The translations under genes and the position numbers were made by a program. Below, in pieces: positions 55,024 to 63,258 of a stretch of DNA of 64,000 bases. The notes under the pieces were generated by a model. That model did not search any database. It saw nothing but the letters and a program-made list of their open reading frames with translations, and was not told the origin of the DNA. Location: contig NZ_JAFDVD010000026.1 of assembly GCF_016887965.1 (NCBI RefSeq), positions 1 to 64,000 of the forward strand, in the 5' to 3' direction. Each line of letters starts with the position of its first letter. Position 1 is the stretch's first letter. The DNA is from Phycicoccus sonneratiae. Its GTDB lineage: Bacteria > Actinomycetota > Actinomycetes > Actinomycetales > Dermatophilaceae.

Positions 55024-55064
55024 CCGGGATGCGGGCCCGCTGTCCCGGATGCCGGACGCCCACC

Positions 55065-55070
55065 TACCAT
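55065..55070 (+). promoter_or_regulatory. -10 element TACCAT, aroG
   Basis: Eight bases before GTG 55079; no Trp/Phe attenuator space exists between it and the gene. Confidence 0.55.
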
Positions 55071-55078
55071 TGACGCTC

Positions 55079-56431
55079 GTGAGCACGACCACGTCCCCGG
55101 ACCCCCTCCAGCGGCTCGCCGCCGGTGCCGACCTCCCGGCTGCCCAGCAGCCGGTCTGGCCCGACCGCGCCGCCCTCGACGAGGCCGTCGGGACGCTCGC
55201 CACCTATCCGCCGCTCGTGTTCGCGGGCGAGTGCGACGTGCTCAAGGACCGGATGGCCGCGGTGGCCCGCGGCGAGGCCTTCGTGCTCCAGGGCGGCGAC
55301 TGCGCCGAGACCTTCGTCTCGGCCACCGCCGACAACATCCGCGACCGGGTCAAGACCATCCTCCAGATGGCCGCGGTCCTCACGTACGGCGCGTCGATGC
55401 CGGTCGTCAAGGTCGGGCGGATGGCCGGGCAGTACGCCAAGCCGCGCTCGAGCGACGACGAGACCCGCGAGGGCGTCACGCTGCCGGCCTACCGCGGCGA
55501 CATGGTCAACGACTACGACTTCACGCCGGAGTCTCGCCGCCCGGACCCGATGCGGCTGGTGCGCGGGTACCACGCGAGCAGCGCCACGCTCAACCTCGTG
55601 CGGGCCTTCACCACCGGTGGCTTCGCCGACCTGCGCCACGTCCACGACTGGAACAAGGGCTTCGTCGCCAACGCGGCGAACGCCCGCTACGAGCGCCTCG
55701 CCCGCGACATCGACAAGGCGATGCGGTTCATGGCCGCGTGCGGCGCCGACTTCGACGCCATGCGCACGACGGAGTTCTTCTCCGCGCACGAGGCGCTGCT
55801 CCTCGACTACGAGCGGCCGATGACCCGCGTCGACTCGCGCACCGGGCAGCTGTACGACACCTCGGGCCACTTCATCTGGGTCGGGGAGCGCACCCGCGAC
55901 CTCGACGGCGCGCACATCGACTTCGTCTCACGTGTGCGGAACCCGGTGGGCGTCAAGGTGTCCGCGAACGCCGACGTCGACGACCTGCTGCGGATGATCG
56001 ACGTCGTCGACCCCGACCGCGAGCCCGGCCGGCTGACGTTCATCACCCGGATGGGCGCGGGACGGGTGCGCGAGGCGCTGCCGGCGATCGTCGAGAAGGT
56101 CACCGCGTCGGGGGCGCTCGTCACCTGGGTCTGCGACCCGATGCACGGCAACACCTTCTCGTCGGCCTCGGGCTTCAAGACCCGCGACTTCGACGACGTC
56201 GTCGCCGAGGTGCGCGGCTTCTTCGAGGTGCACCAGGGCCTCGGCACGCACCCGGGCGGCATCCACGTCGAGCTCACCGGCAACGACGTCACCGAGTGCA
56301 TCGGGGGCTCGGAGAAGATCCTCGACGCCGACCTCGGCACCCGGTACGAGTCGGTGTGCGACCCGCGGCTCAACCACCAGCAGAGCCTCGAGCTGGCCTT
56401 CCTCGTCGCCGAGATGCTGGCCCAGGACTGA
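55079..56431 (+). CDS. aroG: Class II 3-deoxy-7-phosphoheptulonate (DAHP) synthase
   Basis: The 450-residue plant-type (class II) DAHP synthase, first enzyme of the shikimate pathway, joining PEP and erythrose-4-phosphate. Family blocks: FVLQGGDCAETF (metal Cys), KVGRMAGQYAKPRS (PEP-binding Arg), GDMVNDYDF, TDFEAM-like region with TTEFFSAHEALLLDYE, GERTRDLDGAHI and VCDPMHGNTF (metal His). The start GTG 55079 has TACCAT eight bases upstream, and no ribosome site is needed. Threonine aldolase follows nine bases later. Corresponds to Rv2178c. Feedback control by aromatic amino acids is known for the family. Confidence 0.97.
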   Translation: MSTTTSPDPLQRLAAGADLPAAQQPVWPDRAALDEAVGTLATYPPLVFAGECDVLKDRMAAVARGEAFVLQGGDCAETFVSATADNIRDRVKTILQMAAVLTYGASMPVVKVGRMAGQYAKPRSSDDETREGVTLPAYRGDMVNDYDFTPESRRPDPMRLVRGYHASSATLNLVRAFTTGGFADLRHVHDWNKGFVANAANARYERLARDIDKAMRFMAACGADFDAMRTTEFFSAHEALLLDYERPMTRVDSRTGQLYDTSGHFIWVGERTRDLDGAHIDFVSRVRNPVGVKVSANADVDDLLRMIDVVDPDREPGRLTFITRMGAGRVREALPAIVEKVTASGALVTWVCDPMHGNTFSSASGFKTRDFDDVVAEVRGFFEVHQGLGTHPGGIHVELTGNDVTECIGGSEKILDADLGTRYESVCDPRLNHQQSLELAFLVAEMLAQD

Positions 56432-59609: not shown

Positions 59610-61577
59610 TCAGATGACCAGGAGGACGATCGTGCTGCCCTTCGGCTGCTTGCCACTCGAGGGTCGCTGAGCAAGAACCGGGCCCGTGCTGCCCCCGAGG
59701 CCGGAGCGGACGTCGACCCGGAACCCGGCGCCCTCGAGGATGCGGCGCGCCTCGTCGACCTGCTTCCCGACGACGTTCGGCACGTCGACGAGCACCGGGC
59801 CCTTGGACACGACGAGGGTGACCGTGTCGCCCTTGAAGAGCGTCCCGTCGCGGGGCGACTGGCTGATGACGTCGCCCTTCTTCACCGTGTCGCTGTTCTC
59901 CTGCTTCGCCGCGTCGACCGTCAGCCCGAGGTCGGAGAGCTGCTTCTCGGCGTCCTGGGCGCTCTTCCCGGTGAAGTCCGGGACCTTGATCGGCTGGCGG
60001 CCCTTGGAGACGACGAGGGCGACGGCGGCGTCGCGCTTGACGCTCGCGCCCGCCTTCGGCGAGGACGAGACGACCTGGCCCTCGGGGACCTTCTCGGAGA
60101 AGGCCTCGGTGACCTTGCCGAGCGCGAGATTCGTGGCGGCGAGCTGGCGCTTGGCCTCCGCGAGGCTCGACCCCGCGAGGGTGGGCACGGCGTAGCGCTC
60201 CGGTCCCTTCGACACCGTGAGGACGACCTCGGACCCGCGGCGCACCGTGGCCCCGACCTGCGGGTCGGCGCCCATGACCGTGCCCTTGGGGACGTCCTCG
60301 GAGAAGGCCTCGGAGACGGTCGGGTCGAGGTGGGCGGCCTGCACGGCCGTCACCGCCTGGTCCTGCGGCCGGTCGAGGACGGAGGGCACGGTGGCGGTGG
60401 CCCCCGGGCCGAGGAAGAAGAACCAGGCCGTCGCGGCGGCGAGGAGCATCGAGGCGAACGCGGCCGGCCACCAGTTGCGGCCGCGTCGGCCGCCCCCGGC
60501 GACGACGACGCCCTCGAGCGGCTCGCGGGGGAGGGCGATGGCGGTCGTGCGGGCGCTCGCGCCCGAGCCGCCCCGACCCCCGGACCCACCGGGTGCCGCC
60601 ACGGGCGCGACGGCCGACCGGTCGCGGACGGGCAGCGCCGCCGTCGACGTGGGCACCGAGGCCGCCGCGAGCGCCGCCGCGCCGTCGGGGCGGGCGTCGA
60701 GGACGGCCGGGGTGAGCGTCGCGCGGGTGCGGCGCACGAGGGTGAGGAAGTCGGCGGCGTCGGTGGGTCGCTCGTCGGGGTCGCGGGAGGTGGCCACGGC
60801 GACCAGCTCGTCGAGGGCCGGCGGCAGGCCGGGCACGCGGTCGGAGGGCATCGGGACGCCGCCGTGCACGTGCTGGTAGGCGACGTGGATGGGTGTCTCG
60901 CCGGTGAAGGCCTTGGTGCCGGTGAGCATCTCGAAGAGCATGAGCCCGGCGGCGTACACGTCGGACCGGGCGTCGGCGACGCCGCGCTCGACCTGCTCGG
61001 GGGAGAGGTAGGCGACGGTGCCGAGGAGCACGCCGGACGAGCTGGTCATCGTCTGGCTCGAGACCGCCCGGGCCAGCCCGAAGTCGGCGACCTTGACGGT
61101 GCCGTTGTCGTTGATGATGACGTTCTCGGGCTTGACGTCGCGGTGGATCAGGCCCTTGCCGTGCGCCTCCGCGAGCGCGAGCAGCACCGCCTCGAGGACG
61201 TCGAGGGCGGCGCGCGGCGACAGCGTCCCCTCCTCGCGCAGGACGTCGCGCAGGGTGAGGCCGGGGACGTACTCCATCGCGAGGAAGACTGAGCCGTCGT
61301 CCTGGCCCTGGTCGTAGACCGCGACGACGTTGGGGTGCGAGAGCGCGGCGGCCGAGCGGGCCTCGCGGCGGAACCGGCTGACGAAGGTCTCGTCGTGGAC
61401 GAGGTGGGGCCGCATGACCTTGAGGGCGACCTCGCGCTCGAGCCGCTCGTCGACGGCGAGGTAGACGGTGGCCATCCCGCCGTCGGCGATGCGCGACAGC
61501 ACGCGGTAGCGGCCGTCGAGGGTGCGCCCGATGAGGGCGTCGCCTTGGGGAGACACCGTAGGAGTGTACGTAGTCAC
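59610..61577 (-). CDS. pknL: Ser/Thr protein kinase with four PASTA domains (PknL type)
   Basis: A 655-residue transmembrane kinase. The kinase domain spans about 24-285 with ADGGMATVYLAV, Lys53 (VALKVMRP), HRDVKPENVIINDNG, VADFGLARA and LGTVAYLSPEQ, all canonical. A Gly/Ser/Ala-rich juxtamembrane segment precedes the single helix (about 366-392, SMLLAAATAWFFFLG). Four PASTA repeats follow, each opening with a VPSVLDRP / VPTLAGSS / VPDFTGKS / VPNVVGKQ type strand; these bind peptidoglycan fragments in related kinases. GGGGGAAGG before GTG 61577. A LysM transglycosylase gene ends 30 bases upstream, and the Rv2175c-type substrate gene is nearby, as around PknL (Rv2176). Confidence 0.93.
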   Translation of the reverse strand: MTTYTPTVSPQGDALIGRTLDGRYRVLSRIADGGMATVYLAVDERLEREVALKVMRPHLVHDETFVSRFRREARSAAALSHPNVVAVYDQGQDDGSVFLAMEYVPGLTLRDVLREEGTLSPRAALDVLEAVLLALAEAHGKGLIHRDVKPENVIINDNGTVKVADFGLARAVSSQTMTSSSGVLLGTVAYLSPEQVERGVADARSDVYAAGLMLFEMLTGTKAFTGETPIHVAYQHVHGGVPMPSDRVPGLPPALDELVAVATSRDPDERPTDAADFLTLVRRTRATLTPAVLDARPDGAAALAAASVPTSTAALPVRDRSAVAPVAAPGGSGGRGGSGASARTTAIALPREPLEGVVVAGGGRRGRNWWPAAFASMLLAAATAWFFFLGPGATATVPSVLDRPQDQAVTAVQAAHLDPTVSEAFSEDVPKGTVMGADPQVGATVRRGSEVVLTVSKGPERYAVPTLAGSSLAEAKRQLAATNLALGKVTEAFSEKVPEGQVVSSSPKAGASVKRDAAVALVVSKGRQPIKVPDFTGKSAQDAEKQLSDLGLTVDAAKQENSDTVKKGDVISQSPRDGTLFKGDTVTLVVSKGPVLVDVPNVVGKQVDEARRILEGAGFRVDVRSGLGGSTGPVLAQRPSSGKQPKGSTIVLLVI

Positions 61578-61606
61578 GGCCCTTCCCCCGCTCTCGGTCC
61601 GGCGCG

Positions 61607-62725
61607 TCACATGGTGGCGCGGAGCCGCATGATCGTCTTCACGTACTGCTTCGTGTCGCTGTACATCCCGTGCTTCTGCACCGACGCCAGGCCCTGGTAG
61701 TACCCGCCCACGGCCTGCTCGGTGTTCTTCGCCGAGCGGCCGAGCGCCCGGAGCATGACGACCCCCGCGGTGATGTTGTCGCGGGCGTCGAGCAGGTCGA
61801 GCCGGCGACCGACGAGGCTGGAGGCCCAGTCGCCACCGGAGGGGATGACCTGCATGACGCCGACGGCGTTCGCGGGGGAGACCGCCCGCTGGTTCCAGCC
61901 GGACTCCATCGAGCCGACGGCCAGGGCCAGCCGCGGGTCGACCCCGTGCCGCCGGGCGGTCTGGACGATGATCGCGCGCACCTCGCTGCGGCTCGGGACC
62001 GAGCGCTTGGCGAGGATCGCGTGGTTGCGGCGGGCGGCGGCGACGACCGAGCTCGGGTACTTCACGCCGTTGAAGGTGTCGGAGACCGCGTGGGCCGCCG
62101 AGACGGGGATGCGCAGCTTCTGGCCGACCCGCAGCAGCGACCCGCTGGAGATGCGGCTGGCGCGGGCGATGTCGCCGACGGTCGTGTCGTAGCGGGCCGC
62201 GAGGCCGCTCAGGGTGTCGCCCGAGCGCACCGTGTGGGTGCGGGAGGTGGCCGCCGGACGCCCCGCCGCCGCCTTGGCCGACGACGAGCCCGCCGACCCC
62301 GCGCCCCGGACGGTGATCCGGTCGCCGGGGTGGATGAGGCTGCGCGACGACAGGTGGTTGGCCTTGAGCAGGCTCGCGAGGGAGACGCGGTAGCGCGCGG
62401 CGATGCCGCTCATCGTCTCGCCGTCGCGTACGACGTGCACCCGGCCGGCGGCCGCGGCCTTGGCCTTCGCGGCCTGGGCCGCCTGAGCGGCGGTGCGCGG
62501 CACGCTCAGCCGGTCACCCGGGTGGATGAGGCCGGGGGTGCGCACGTGGTTGCGGGCCACGAGCGCCCCGACCGTCGTCCGGTGGCGGGCCGCGATGCCG
62601 TCGAGCGTGTCGCCGTCCCTGACCGTGTAGGTGGTCCACCCGTGCGGCGCGGTGCGCGAGGGCGCGACGAGCGCGGTGACGGGCTCGAGGACGGGGGTGG
62701 CGGGCGGCGGTGCAGCGACGACCAT
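61607..62725 (-). CDS. Triple LysM plus lytic transglycosylase-fold cell-wall protein
   Basis: A 372-residue peptidoglycan-binding protein. Three LysM domains lie at about 31-76 (YTVRDGDTLDGIAARHRTT), 95-140 (HVVRDGETMSGIAARYRVS) and 160-206 (HTVRSGDTLSGLAARYDTT). A C-terminal SLT/lysozyme-like domain (about 235-372) carries the likely catalytic glutamate in LAVGSMESGWNQRA and AVGVMQVIP. No clear signal peptide follows ATG 62725 (MVVAAPPPATPV...), although such proteins are normally exported; GTG 62773 upstream would add only a short non-hydrophobic stretch. GAAGGA lies before the ATG. Confidence 0.9.
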   Translation of the reverse strand: MVVAAPPPATPVLEPVTALVAPSRTAPHGWTTYTVRDGDTLDGIAARHRTTVGALVARNHVRTPGLIHPGDRLSVPRTAAQAAQAAKAKAAAAGRVHVVRDGETMSGIAARYRVSLASLLKANHLSSRSLIHPGDRITVRGAGSAGSSSAKAAAGRPAATSRTHTVRSGDTLSGLAARYDTTVGDIARASRISSGSLLRVGQKLRIPVSAAHAVSDTFNGVKYPSSVVAAARRNHAILAKRSVPSRSEVRAIIVQTARRHGVDPRLALAVGSMESGWNQRAVSPANAVGVMQVIPSGGDWASSLVGRRLDLLDARDNITAGVVMLRALGRSAKNTEQAVGGYYQGLASVQKHGMYSDTKQYVKTIMRLRATM

Positions 62726-62751
62726 GACGCGGGGTCCTTCGGCTGAGTGGG

Positions 62752-62771
62752 GGTCACCCCGTGGGGTGACC
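62752..62771. repeat. Short palindrome in LysM gene leader
   Basis: GGTCACCCC and GGGGTGACC (9-base arms, two-base centre), 27 bases upstream of the LysM protein's ATG and close to its likely transcription start. The size and symmetry fit a repressor operator or a small RNA hairpin; no regulator can be named. Confidence 0.5.
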
Positions 62772-62862
62772 ACTGTGACGTTTGGGGCCCACGGTACCGG
62801 AGTGACGGGTGATGCGCAGCGCCTCCGGCGAACGAGGTGCCGACGCGCCTCGCGGCCTGTGG

Positions 62863-62868
62863 CACGCT
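62863..62868 (+). promoter_or_regulatory. -10-like element CACGCT, Rv2175c-type gene
   Basis: Six bases before GTG 62875; same hexamer and spacing as upstream of the 110-residue protein at 57543. Confidence 0.4.
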
Positions 62869-62874
62869 GGCCGG

Positions 62875-63258
62875 GTGAGCGACACCGCACCCGATCCCGC
62901 GACGGACCTCGAGGCCCTCGTCCCGGACTGGCTGACCGTCCCCGACCTCGCCGAGCGGCTCGGCCTGCGCCTCTCCGACGTCCGCCGGCTCATCGAGGAG
63001 CGTGAGCTGCTCGCCGTCCGCGTCGGCGAGCGCCGCGTGGTCGCGGTCCCGGCCGGCTTCGTCGACGACGACGGGCCGCTCCCGGCGCTGCGCGGCACCT
63101 TCACCGTGCTCGCCGACGGCGGGATGGACGACGCCGAGGTCATCCGCTGGCTGCACACCCCCGACGACACCCTGCCGGTGCCGGGCGCGCCGCTCGACGC
63201 CATCCGCGCCGGATTCAAGACCGAGGTCCGCAAGCGCGCCATGGAGGAGGCGTTCTGA
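62875..63258 (+). CDS. Rv2175c-type winged-helix DNA-binding protein
   Basis: A 127-residue protein of the Rv2175c family, whose mycobacterial member binds DNA and is a substrate of PknL. A helix-turn-helix/wing is visible: WLTVPDLAERLGLRLSDVRR and LIEERELLAVRVGERRVVAVP. C-terminal half: PALRGTFTVLADGGMDDAEV and an amphipathic end (FKTEVRKRAMEEAF). GTG 62875 has CACGCT six bases upstream. Divergent from the LysM gene; its stop overlaps the presumed start of the GH13 gene. Confidence 0.9.
   Translation: MSDTAPDPATDLEALVPDWLTVPDLAERLGLRLSDVRRLIEERELLAVRVGERRVVAVPAGFVDDDGPLPALRGTFTVLADGGMDDAEVIRWLHTPDDTLPVPGAPLDAIRAGFKTEVRKRAMEEAF

Follow-up and report, generated by a model that had tools for sequence, protein, structure and literature searches.

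Why should a gene for a cell wall-cutting enzyme stand between a membrane kinase of the PknL type and a divergent gene for a relative of Rv2175c, a DNA-binding protein of Mycobacterium tuberculosis? This arrangement occurs in the actinobacterium Phycicoccus sonneratiae, in a stretch of 64,000 nucleotides (contig NZ_JAFDVD010000026.1, positions 1 to 64,000), referred to below as the window, and a sequence-only reading of it had proposed that the three genes may form a wall-damage signaling unit. According to the analysis presented here, the locus is probably a co-expressed operon of hydrolase and PASTA kinase with an envelope-type promoter. It would represent the hydrolase-containing form of the actinobacterial pknL locus, in which a LysM enzyme predicted to cleave the glycan strands of peptidoglycan is encoded just before a membrane kinase, probably in one operon; the outside part of the kinase would carry four wall-binding PASTA repeats, and the divergent gene codes for a small Rv2175c-like protein, predicted to bind DNA. 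Transcription of the operon probably starts at a promoter with GTCACA repeats of 9-bp period, an element that also precedes the genes of some other wall enzymes. Wall cutter and wall sensor would most likely be produced together, so that the output of the kinase may follow hydrolase activity in wall remodeling. Gene order, domains, conservation, the alternative enzyme domain and the repeat array were computed directly; statements on published systems rest on excerpts of the cited papers.

Gene Order and Domains of the Locus

The features of the window to which the text refers are as follows.

59610 to 61577, minus strand: PASTA Ser/Thr kinase at the pknL position, 655 aa (amino acids), with a kinase domain, a single hydrophobic segment that fits a transmembrane helix, and four PASTA repeats
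61607 to 62725, minus strand: gene for a lytic transglycosylase-like protein, three LysM domains plus SLT, 372 aa, with an ESGW motif holding the catalytic Glu
62875 to 63258, plus strand: Rv2175c-like winged helix-turn-helix (wHTH) protein, 127 aa, GTG start
62765 to 62779, minus strand: direct repeat GTCACAGTGGTCACC, 9-bp period, preceding the LysM/SLT gene and differing from GTCACA-N3-GTCACA at one position
62791 to 62796, minus strand: -10-like TACCGT, putative promoter element of the LysM/SLT-kinase operon
55049 to 56431, plus strand: class-II DAHP synthase (PF01474, 668.2 bits)

Three consecutive genes thus occupy 59.6–63.3 kb, the kinase and LysM/SLT genes on the minus strand and the Rv2175c-like gene divergent on the plus strand; this much of the sequence-only reading is borne out, with refined starts, and the closest named relatives belong to Phycicoccus. 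The longest open reading frame (ORF) of the kinase starts at 61610 (666 aa), and a GTG at 61577 is preceded by GGGGGAAGG and is the likelier start, leaving a gap of 29 bp after the LysM/SLT stop codon. Scanned as the 666-aa ORF, the kinase scores 163.8 bits for Pkinase, contains four PASTA domains, and matches NF033483 with 708.8 bits (cut-off 450). The gene neighborhood argues for a PknL-type kinase and so supports the earlier pknL-type label: the kinase gene is divergent from the Rv2175c-like gene, with the LysM/SLT gene lying between, and the class-II DAHP synthase gene is close by. The assignment of PknL orthology rests on this gene order. A class-II DAHP synthase gene also occurs in at least 27 of 60 regions sampled across the class, a lower bound, as many of these regions stop short of the gene. 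The P. sonneratiae genome has eight kinase-domain matches, two of them with PASTA in the searched stretches of about 3.7 kb; the second PASTA kinase, on contig C30 with 3 PASTA detected, is distinct from that of the locus and is probably a separate, PknB-like kinase.

The hydrolase scores 147.1 bits for its three LysM domains (62498–62629, 62309–62437, and 62105–62236) and 62.7 bits for SLT (61643–61966), and the SLT domain carries the catalytic Glu together with the GVMQ and YYQG motifs. The Glu is invariant in 91 of 91 loci with an SLT gene, that is, in 57 of 57 from the family set of P. sonneratiae and 34 of 34 elsewhere (the split between family set and outside being our own). Because it is retained throughout both groups, the hydrolase is under selection; its enzyme activity is predicted.

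Conservation of the Hydrolase-Kinase Pair

Of 394 confirmed relatives of Rv2175c, the best 80, at named loci, were analyzed. The order Rv2175c, SLT, kinase is present in 66 of the 80, with the SLT and kinase domains no more than 245 bp apart in 59 of those 66. In two loci an SLT gene is present but no kinase was detected, and three have neither; among these five, L088 and L115 are cut by contig ends (one with SLT only, the other with neither, cut after 0.9 kb), L062 and L081 show neither gene within 3.4 and 6 kb of upstream sequence, and L090 has an SLT gene with no kinase detected. A separate set of 30 loci with 1.5-kb flanks, which overlaps the 80, has the SLT gene in 22.

In a class-wide sample, PF18367 was found in 105 of 148 genomes, and 60 regions were taken to spread across families; 59 contain Rv2175c and 54 a kinase. 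An SLT gene accompanies the kinase in 22 of these 54 loci, and a LysM gene of any kind in 27. All 27 LysM genes are on the kinase strand, and 26 are no more than 145 bp from the kinase domain (L177 at 1.8 kb). The kinase is about 3–7 kb from Rv2175c, yet paired with the hydrolase, in L146-L149, L156-L159, and L167. Since the pair persists where Rv2175c is kilobases away, hydrolase and kinase form a tighter unit than Rv2175c and kinase, judging from gene order. The LysM transglycosylase is accordingly no local insertion at the level of these sequences. Conservation of the LysM gene between the other two had been proposed as a check on the wall-damage idea, to be given up if the gene were not conserved at this place; with 66 of 80 named and 27 of 54 class-wide loci the outcome is favorable, and as the gene is conserved, that ground for giving up the idea falls away.

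An Alternative Enzyme Domain at the Same Position

Five genomes of family f16 (L131-L135) have a LysM gene at the same position whose C-terminal domain is not SLT. No catalytic Pfam family was matched by the two of these five proteins that were scanned. A profile of the five C-terminal sequences matches the muramidase structures 8b2h and 8b2e (E-values 2.7e-11 and 1.9e-10), which belong to GH184 (PMC10394673), and it is on this profile match that the muramidase-like assignment rests; an AlphaFold model of the domain reaches a middling predicted local distance difference test score (pLDDT) of 74. No other observation speaks as strongly for a functional link between hydrolase and kinase as the occurrence of two different, putatively glycan-cleaving domains at one position; the idea of such a link, already present in the sequence-only reading, gains support from the second enzyme type.

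The Export Signal of the Hydrolase

By a rule that looks for basic residues ahead of a 10-residue hydrophobic core, no recognizable signal peptide is present on the P. sonneratiae hydrolase, which begins MVVAAPPPATPVLEP. The rule is satisfied by 5 of 57 hydrolases in the family set vs. 30 of 34 outside it, and it errs in both directions: L097 is matched, probably spuriously, whereas L120 fails although a signal is visible. Of the five matches inside the family set, two (L051 and L054) fall ahead of the probable start codon. A few hydrolases inside the set (L089, L137) and one outside (L115) start with a hydrophobic stretch that lacks basic residues. Elsewhere in the class, the N-terminus is usually a basic stretch followed by a clear hydrophobic segment.

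A wrongly chosen start codon was rejected as the explanation, for the upstream frame shows no convincing signal; in P. sonneratiae and most of the genus the ATG is preceded by a GAAGGAC-type sequence, which also counts against it. Cysteine content, tried as a test of cell compartment, was uninformative, as hardly any cysteine occurs in the catalytic domains of the kinases at these loci either.

The Rv2175c-Like Protein

The 127-aa protein is a member of the Rv2175c family (PF18367, 65.8 bits, cut-off 26.4; PF21531, 38.3 bits, cut-off 27.1). Its sequence matches 2kfs, the nuclear magnetic resonance structure of Rv2175c, and its AlphaFold model (pLDDT 91) has 2kfs as its best fold match (E-value 4.6e-07) and its sole match at an E-value of 0.001 or less.

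In M. tuberculosis, PknL phosphorylates Rv2175c at Thr9, and a Thr9-to-Asp substitution abolishes DNA binding; Thr9 lies within an N-terminal extension that the same source describes as unique to M. tuberculosis (PMC4601284). Among 121 homologs with a readable tail (18 more were unreadable), threonine is absent from the tail in 54 with the nearest start, in 37 with a start at least 9 residues before the conserved Trp, and in 24 with the farthest start within 45 residues. By these counts the tail is variable across homologs, which does not imply the absence of a site. The P. sonneratiae protein has T4 and T10, and phosphorylation at either is possible. Because the extension is described as specific to M. 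tuberculosis and the tail threonine is variable, the M. tuberculosis case cannot be carried over.

The Putative Promoter and Its GTCACA Repeats

On the hydrolase strand, direct repeats of GTCACA-N3 recur every 9 bp in the region between the divergent genes, in an array of the form (GTCACANNN)3. With two mismatches allowed in twelve positions, the array is found in 35 of 56 intergenic regions of the family set (shuffled sequences, mean 2.5, maximum 4) and in 19 of 24 outside it (mean 0.7, maximum 3); no array was found on the opposite strand of the same 56 and 24 regions. Other periods are near background, with a mild excess at 11 and 15–17; the 11-bp period occurs in 8 of 56 regions (shuffle mean 1.8) and 4 of 24 (0.8). 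Within 600 bp upstream of Rv2175c on the hydrolase strand, the array is present at 55 of 91 SLT loci vs. 7 of 41 loci with a kinase and no SLT gene, those seven being four f16 loci with the other enzyme, L046 and L071, which are family loci without a hydrolase, and L176. It is present at one of seven loci with neither SLT nor kinase, and its density elsewhere in the loci is 0.02–0.06 per 600 bp. In L146, L147, L149, L152, and L156-L159, the array stands before the hydrolase at 1.4–6 kb from Rv2175c; L148 and L167 have none at the same threshold. Around the -10-like TACCGT, the seven nearest named loci (L039-L045) share a CACTCCGGTACCGT-type block, which the remaining 73 intergenic regions all lack.

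Across the 148 genomes, the triple repeat has 332 matches, overlaps counted, vs. 29 for the reversed pattern: 258 vs. 18 in the 105 genomes with Rv2175c and 74 vs. 11 in the 43 without it. Because the array is present in genomes that lack Rv2175c, its binder would not be Rv2175c alone. A role as Rv2175c operator was thus rejected as the leading explanation of the array, which follows the hydrolase when Rv2175c is kilobases off, and the earlier proposal of an Rv2175c site at 62.7–62.9 kb is weakened in that the array found there is not specific to Rv2175c. A perfect palindrome with 8-bp arms at 62753–62770, GTCACCCC-GT-GGGGTGAC, was rejected as Rv2175c operator too, as only the locus's own sequence has it among 30 loci, 12 of them of the same genus.

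The sites of two known regulators resemble the array in part. The mycobacterial MtrA motif is GTCACAgcg (PMC4285127; PMC2945938), and MtrA motifs reportedly consist of 9-nt repeats set 2 nt apart (PMC6265350); the half-site GTCACA is the same here, but the published spacing equals an 11-bp period, in contrast to the main period of 9 bp. In 12 genomes, partly chosen for showing the 9-bp array, there are 28 exact 9-bp pairs vs. 7 exact 11-bp pairs (reversed controls 4 and 0). An MtrA box was therefore rejected, as the half-site fits and the main period does not. BldC recognizes direct repeats of 9 bp in varying copy number, with the consensus AATT-N4-C (PMC5859096), in wider form AATT(N3-4)(C/G), and it was rejected as binder for the converse reason: period and variable copy number agree, whereas the consensus is not GTCACA. 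As a separate observation, 14 loci have a palindrome-like block, AATTACATCGATGTAAG, in exact or nearly exact form ahead of the hydrolase promoter; they include L063, L064, L067, L073, L078, L085, L136, and metagenome-assembled genomes of Kineosporiaceae (L101) and Micrococcaceae (L106); its AATT fits a BldC-type half-site.

Of 41 array sites inspected, nine are hydrolase promoters of this locus, and the ORFs downstream of 19 others, of our own choosing, were scanned against Pfam. Six of these encode envelope proteins (NlpC/P60, two LytR-CpsA-Psr, VanY, Amidase_2, and LGFP), and six, one of them scanned in the wrong frame, matched no family. The array suggests that some envelope genes share a controller and may be co-regulated by one factor. 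Several genes behind the array are recorded here in their own right. A BldC-like HTH_17 gene (L197:1559-1780) has a GTCACA array just upstream, and the wHTH that it encodes is matched by the Rv2175c_wHTH profile as well. Two genes (L213:464-1501 and L235:325-1269), one of which lies in the P. sonneratiae genome (G000:C5), encode membrane-protein-like products with similar N-termini of the WxRRxxxLxxTRSVExFSxAMRxL type and match no Pfam family. In the P. sonneratiae genome, a MerR-family regulator gene (L223:839-1420, G000:C23) lies behind an exact GTCACA pair, and we take its product to resemble the FtsR-type regulators.

Alternative Explanations

Several observations weigh against a co-expressed hydrolase-kinase operon with an envelope-type promoter. 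A kinase stands without an SLT gene in 9 of the 80 named loci, and without any LysM gene in 27 of the 54 class-wide loci; 24 of those 27 retain four PASTA domains, and L140, L143, and L144 have none. As PASTA is kept in 24 of 27 loci without the enzyme, the kinase does not need it. Loss of PASTA in step with loss of the hydrolase was looked for and is not seen, bar three f18 loci without both; in addition, L100 and L106 have an SLT gene and kinase frames without detected PASTA, and L101 has most of its PASTA in a separate ORF, which would reflect gene decay or assembly errors. The absent signal peptide in the family set of P. sonneratiae is an obstacle to external action of the hydrolase. Regarding the promoter, the array is weak near the locus itself, as 3 of the 7 nearest named loci (L039-L045) come within two mismatches; the repeat was first spotted and then tested in the same sequences, so that only the genome-wide test is independent; and 7 of the 19 scanned ORFs encode proteins with no obvious tie to the envelope (DUF1684, CoA transferase, alpha/beta hydrolase, HU, MerR, BldC-like HTH_17, and bPH_2). 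The likelihoods that we attach to this and the following explanations overlap and do not sum to one.

The alternative that survives best, to which we would give about one chance in four, is a neighborhood without function, that is, an ancient and slowly decaying gene order in which a shared promoter serves separate pathways. The kinase loci without hydrolase, named and class-wide, are what this explanation expects. It accounts poorly for the muramidase-like domain that f16 has at this position, for the invariant catalytic Glu and the tight spacing, and for the retention of the pair in distant families where Rv2175c has separated.

Less likely still, and on a par with each other, are two explanations that assign the kinase a specific target. 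One is the complete wall-damage loop, in which muropeptides set free by the transglycosylase are sensed through the PASTA domains, whereupon the kinase switches target genes by phosphorylating the Rv2175c-like protein. The conserved neighborhood is in its favor, as are the description of PASTA proteins as muropeptide-recognizing (PMC6448482) and the action of PknL on Rv2175c Thr9 in M. tuberculosis, where Thr9-to-Asp blocks DNA binding (PMC4601284). The Thr-bearing tail, however, is variable, in an extension described as M. tuberculosis-specific (PMC4601284), the enzyme of the family set has no recognizable signal peptide, the promoter array does not follow Rv2175c, and PASTA is retained without the enzyme. 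Of the signaling unit first proposed, the conserved neighborhood stands; a dependence of PASTA on the hydrolase and an Rv2175c-specific array are not supported, and its first step, production of muropeptides outside the cell, is not established, given the rarity of export signals in the family set compared with the remaining loci.

In the other, doubtful to a similar degree, the kinase has the hydrolase as a substrate and controls the export of this enzyme or, in the signal-less family, keeps it as a cytoplasmic regulator. Precedents exist in Clostridioides difficile, where PrkC phosphorylates the hydrolase CwlA, reportedly lowering its export (PMC8262956), and in M. tuberculosis, where CwlM, with no predicted membrane anchor, is phosphorylated by PknB in the cytoplasm (PMC6180346); the genes are adjacent here, and the signal is lost in one clade. 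On the other hand, the Glu is invariant in 57 of 57 members of the signal-less set, which argues for catalysis on wall material, and CwlA itself carries a signal peptide (PMC8262956). The most elaborate version is improbable: in Dermatophilaceae/Intrasporangiaceae, the PknL-paired transglycosylase would have lost its signal clade-wide, kept its Glu, and become a client of the kinase (phospho-controlled and released on demand or intracellular, like CwlM for PknB), expressed from an undescribed, envelope-rich regulon with GTCACA repeats of 9-bp period.

Relation to Known Systems and Significance

As in M. tuberculosis, an Rv2175c wHTH gene stands by the kinase gene, and 2kfs is the closest fold to the 127-aa protein; the locus differs in its four PASTA domains, in the LysM transglycosylase gene between the two, and in the variable Thr-bearing tail. 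In M. tuberculosis itself, pknL and the Rv2175c gene are adjacent, and PknL is not known to carry PASTA. PknL of Corynebacterium glutamicum (cg2388) is likewise a PASTA kinase of the pknL type, with five PASTA domains, and lies upstream of cg2389 and cg2390, which encode hypothetical membrane proteins; the excerpts of that source mention no hydrolase gene beside it (PMC2784874). The pairs PrkC/CwlA and PknB/CwlM also join a PASTA kinase to a peptidoglycan-hydrolase-type protein, but their enzymes are of other classes (NlpC/P60 and amidase) than the SLT type found here, and the likeness lies in the pairing of the proteins. No paper on a PknL-LysM gene pair was found in a search with partial literature coverage, supplements lying outside it.

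The recurrence of the pair across many related families points to a coupling of wall cutting with wall sensing in these bacteria. The clade without a signal peptide may serve as a natural experiment on the export or repurposing of wall hydrolases, and a conserved partner enzyme with two alternative catalytic domains would offer a direct genetic handle on what pknL-type PASTA kinases sense or control in soil bacteria.

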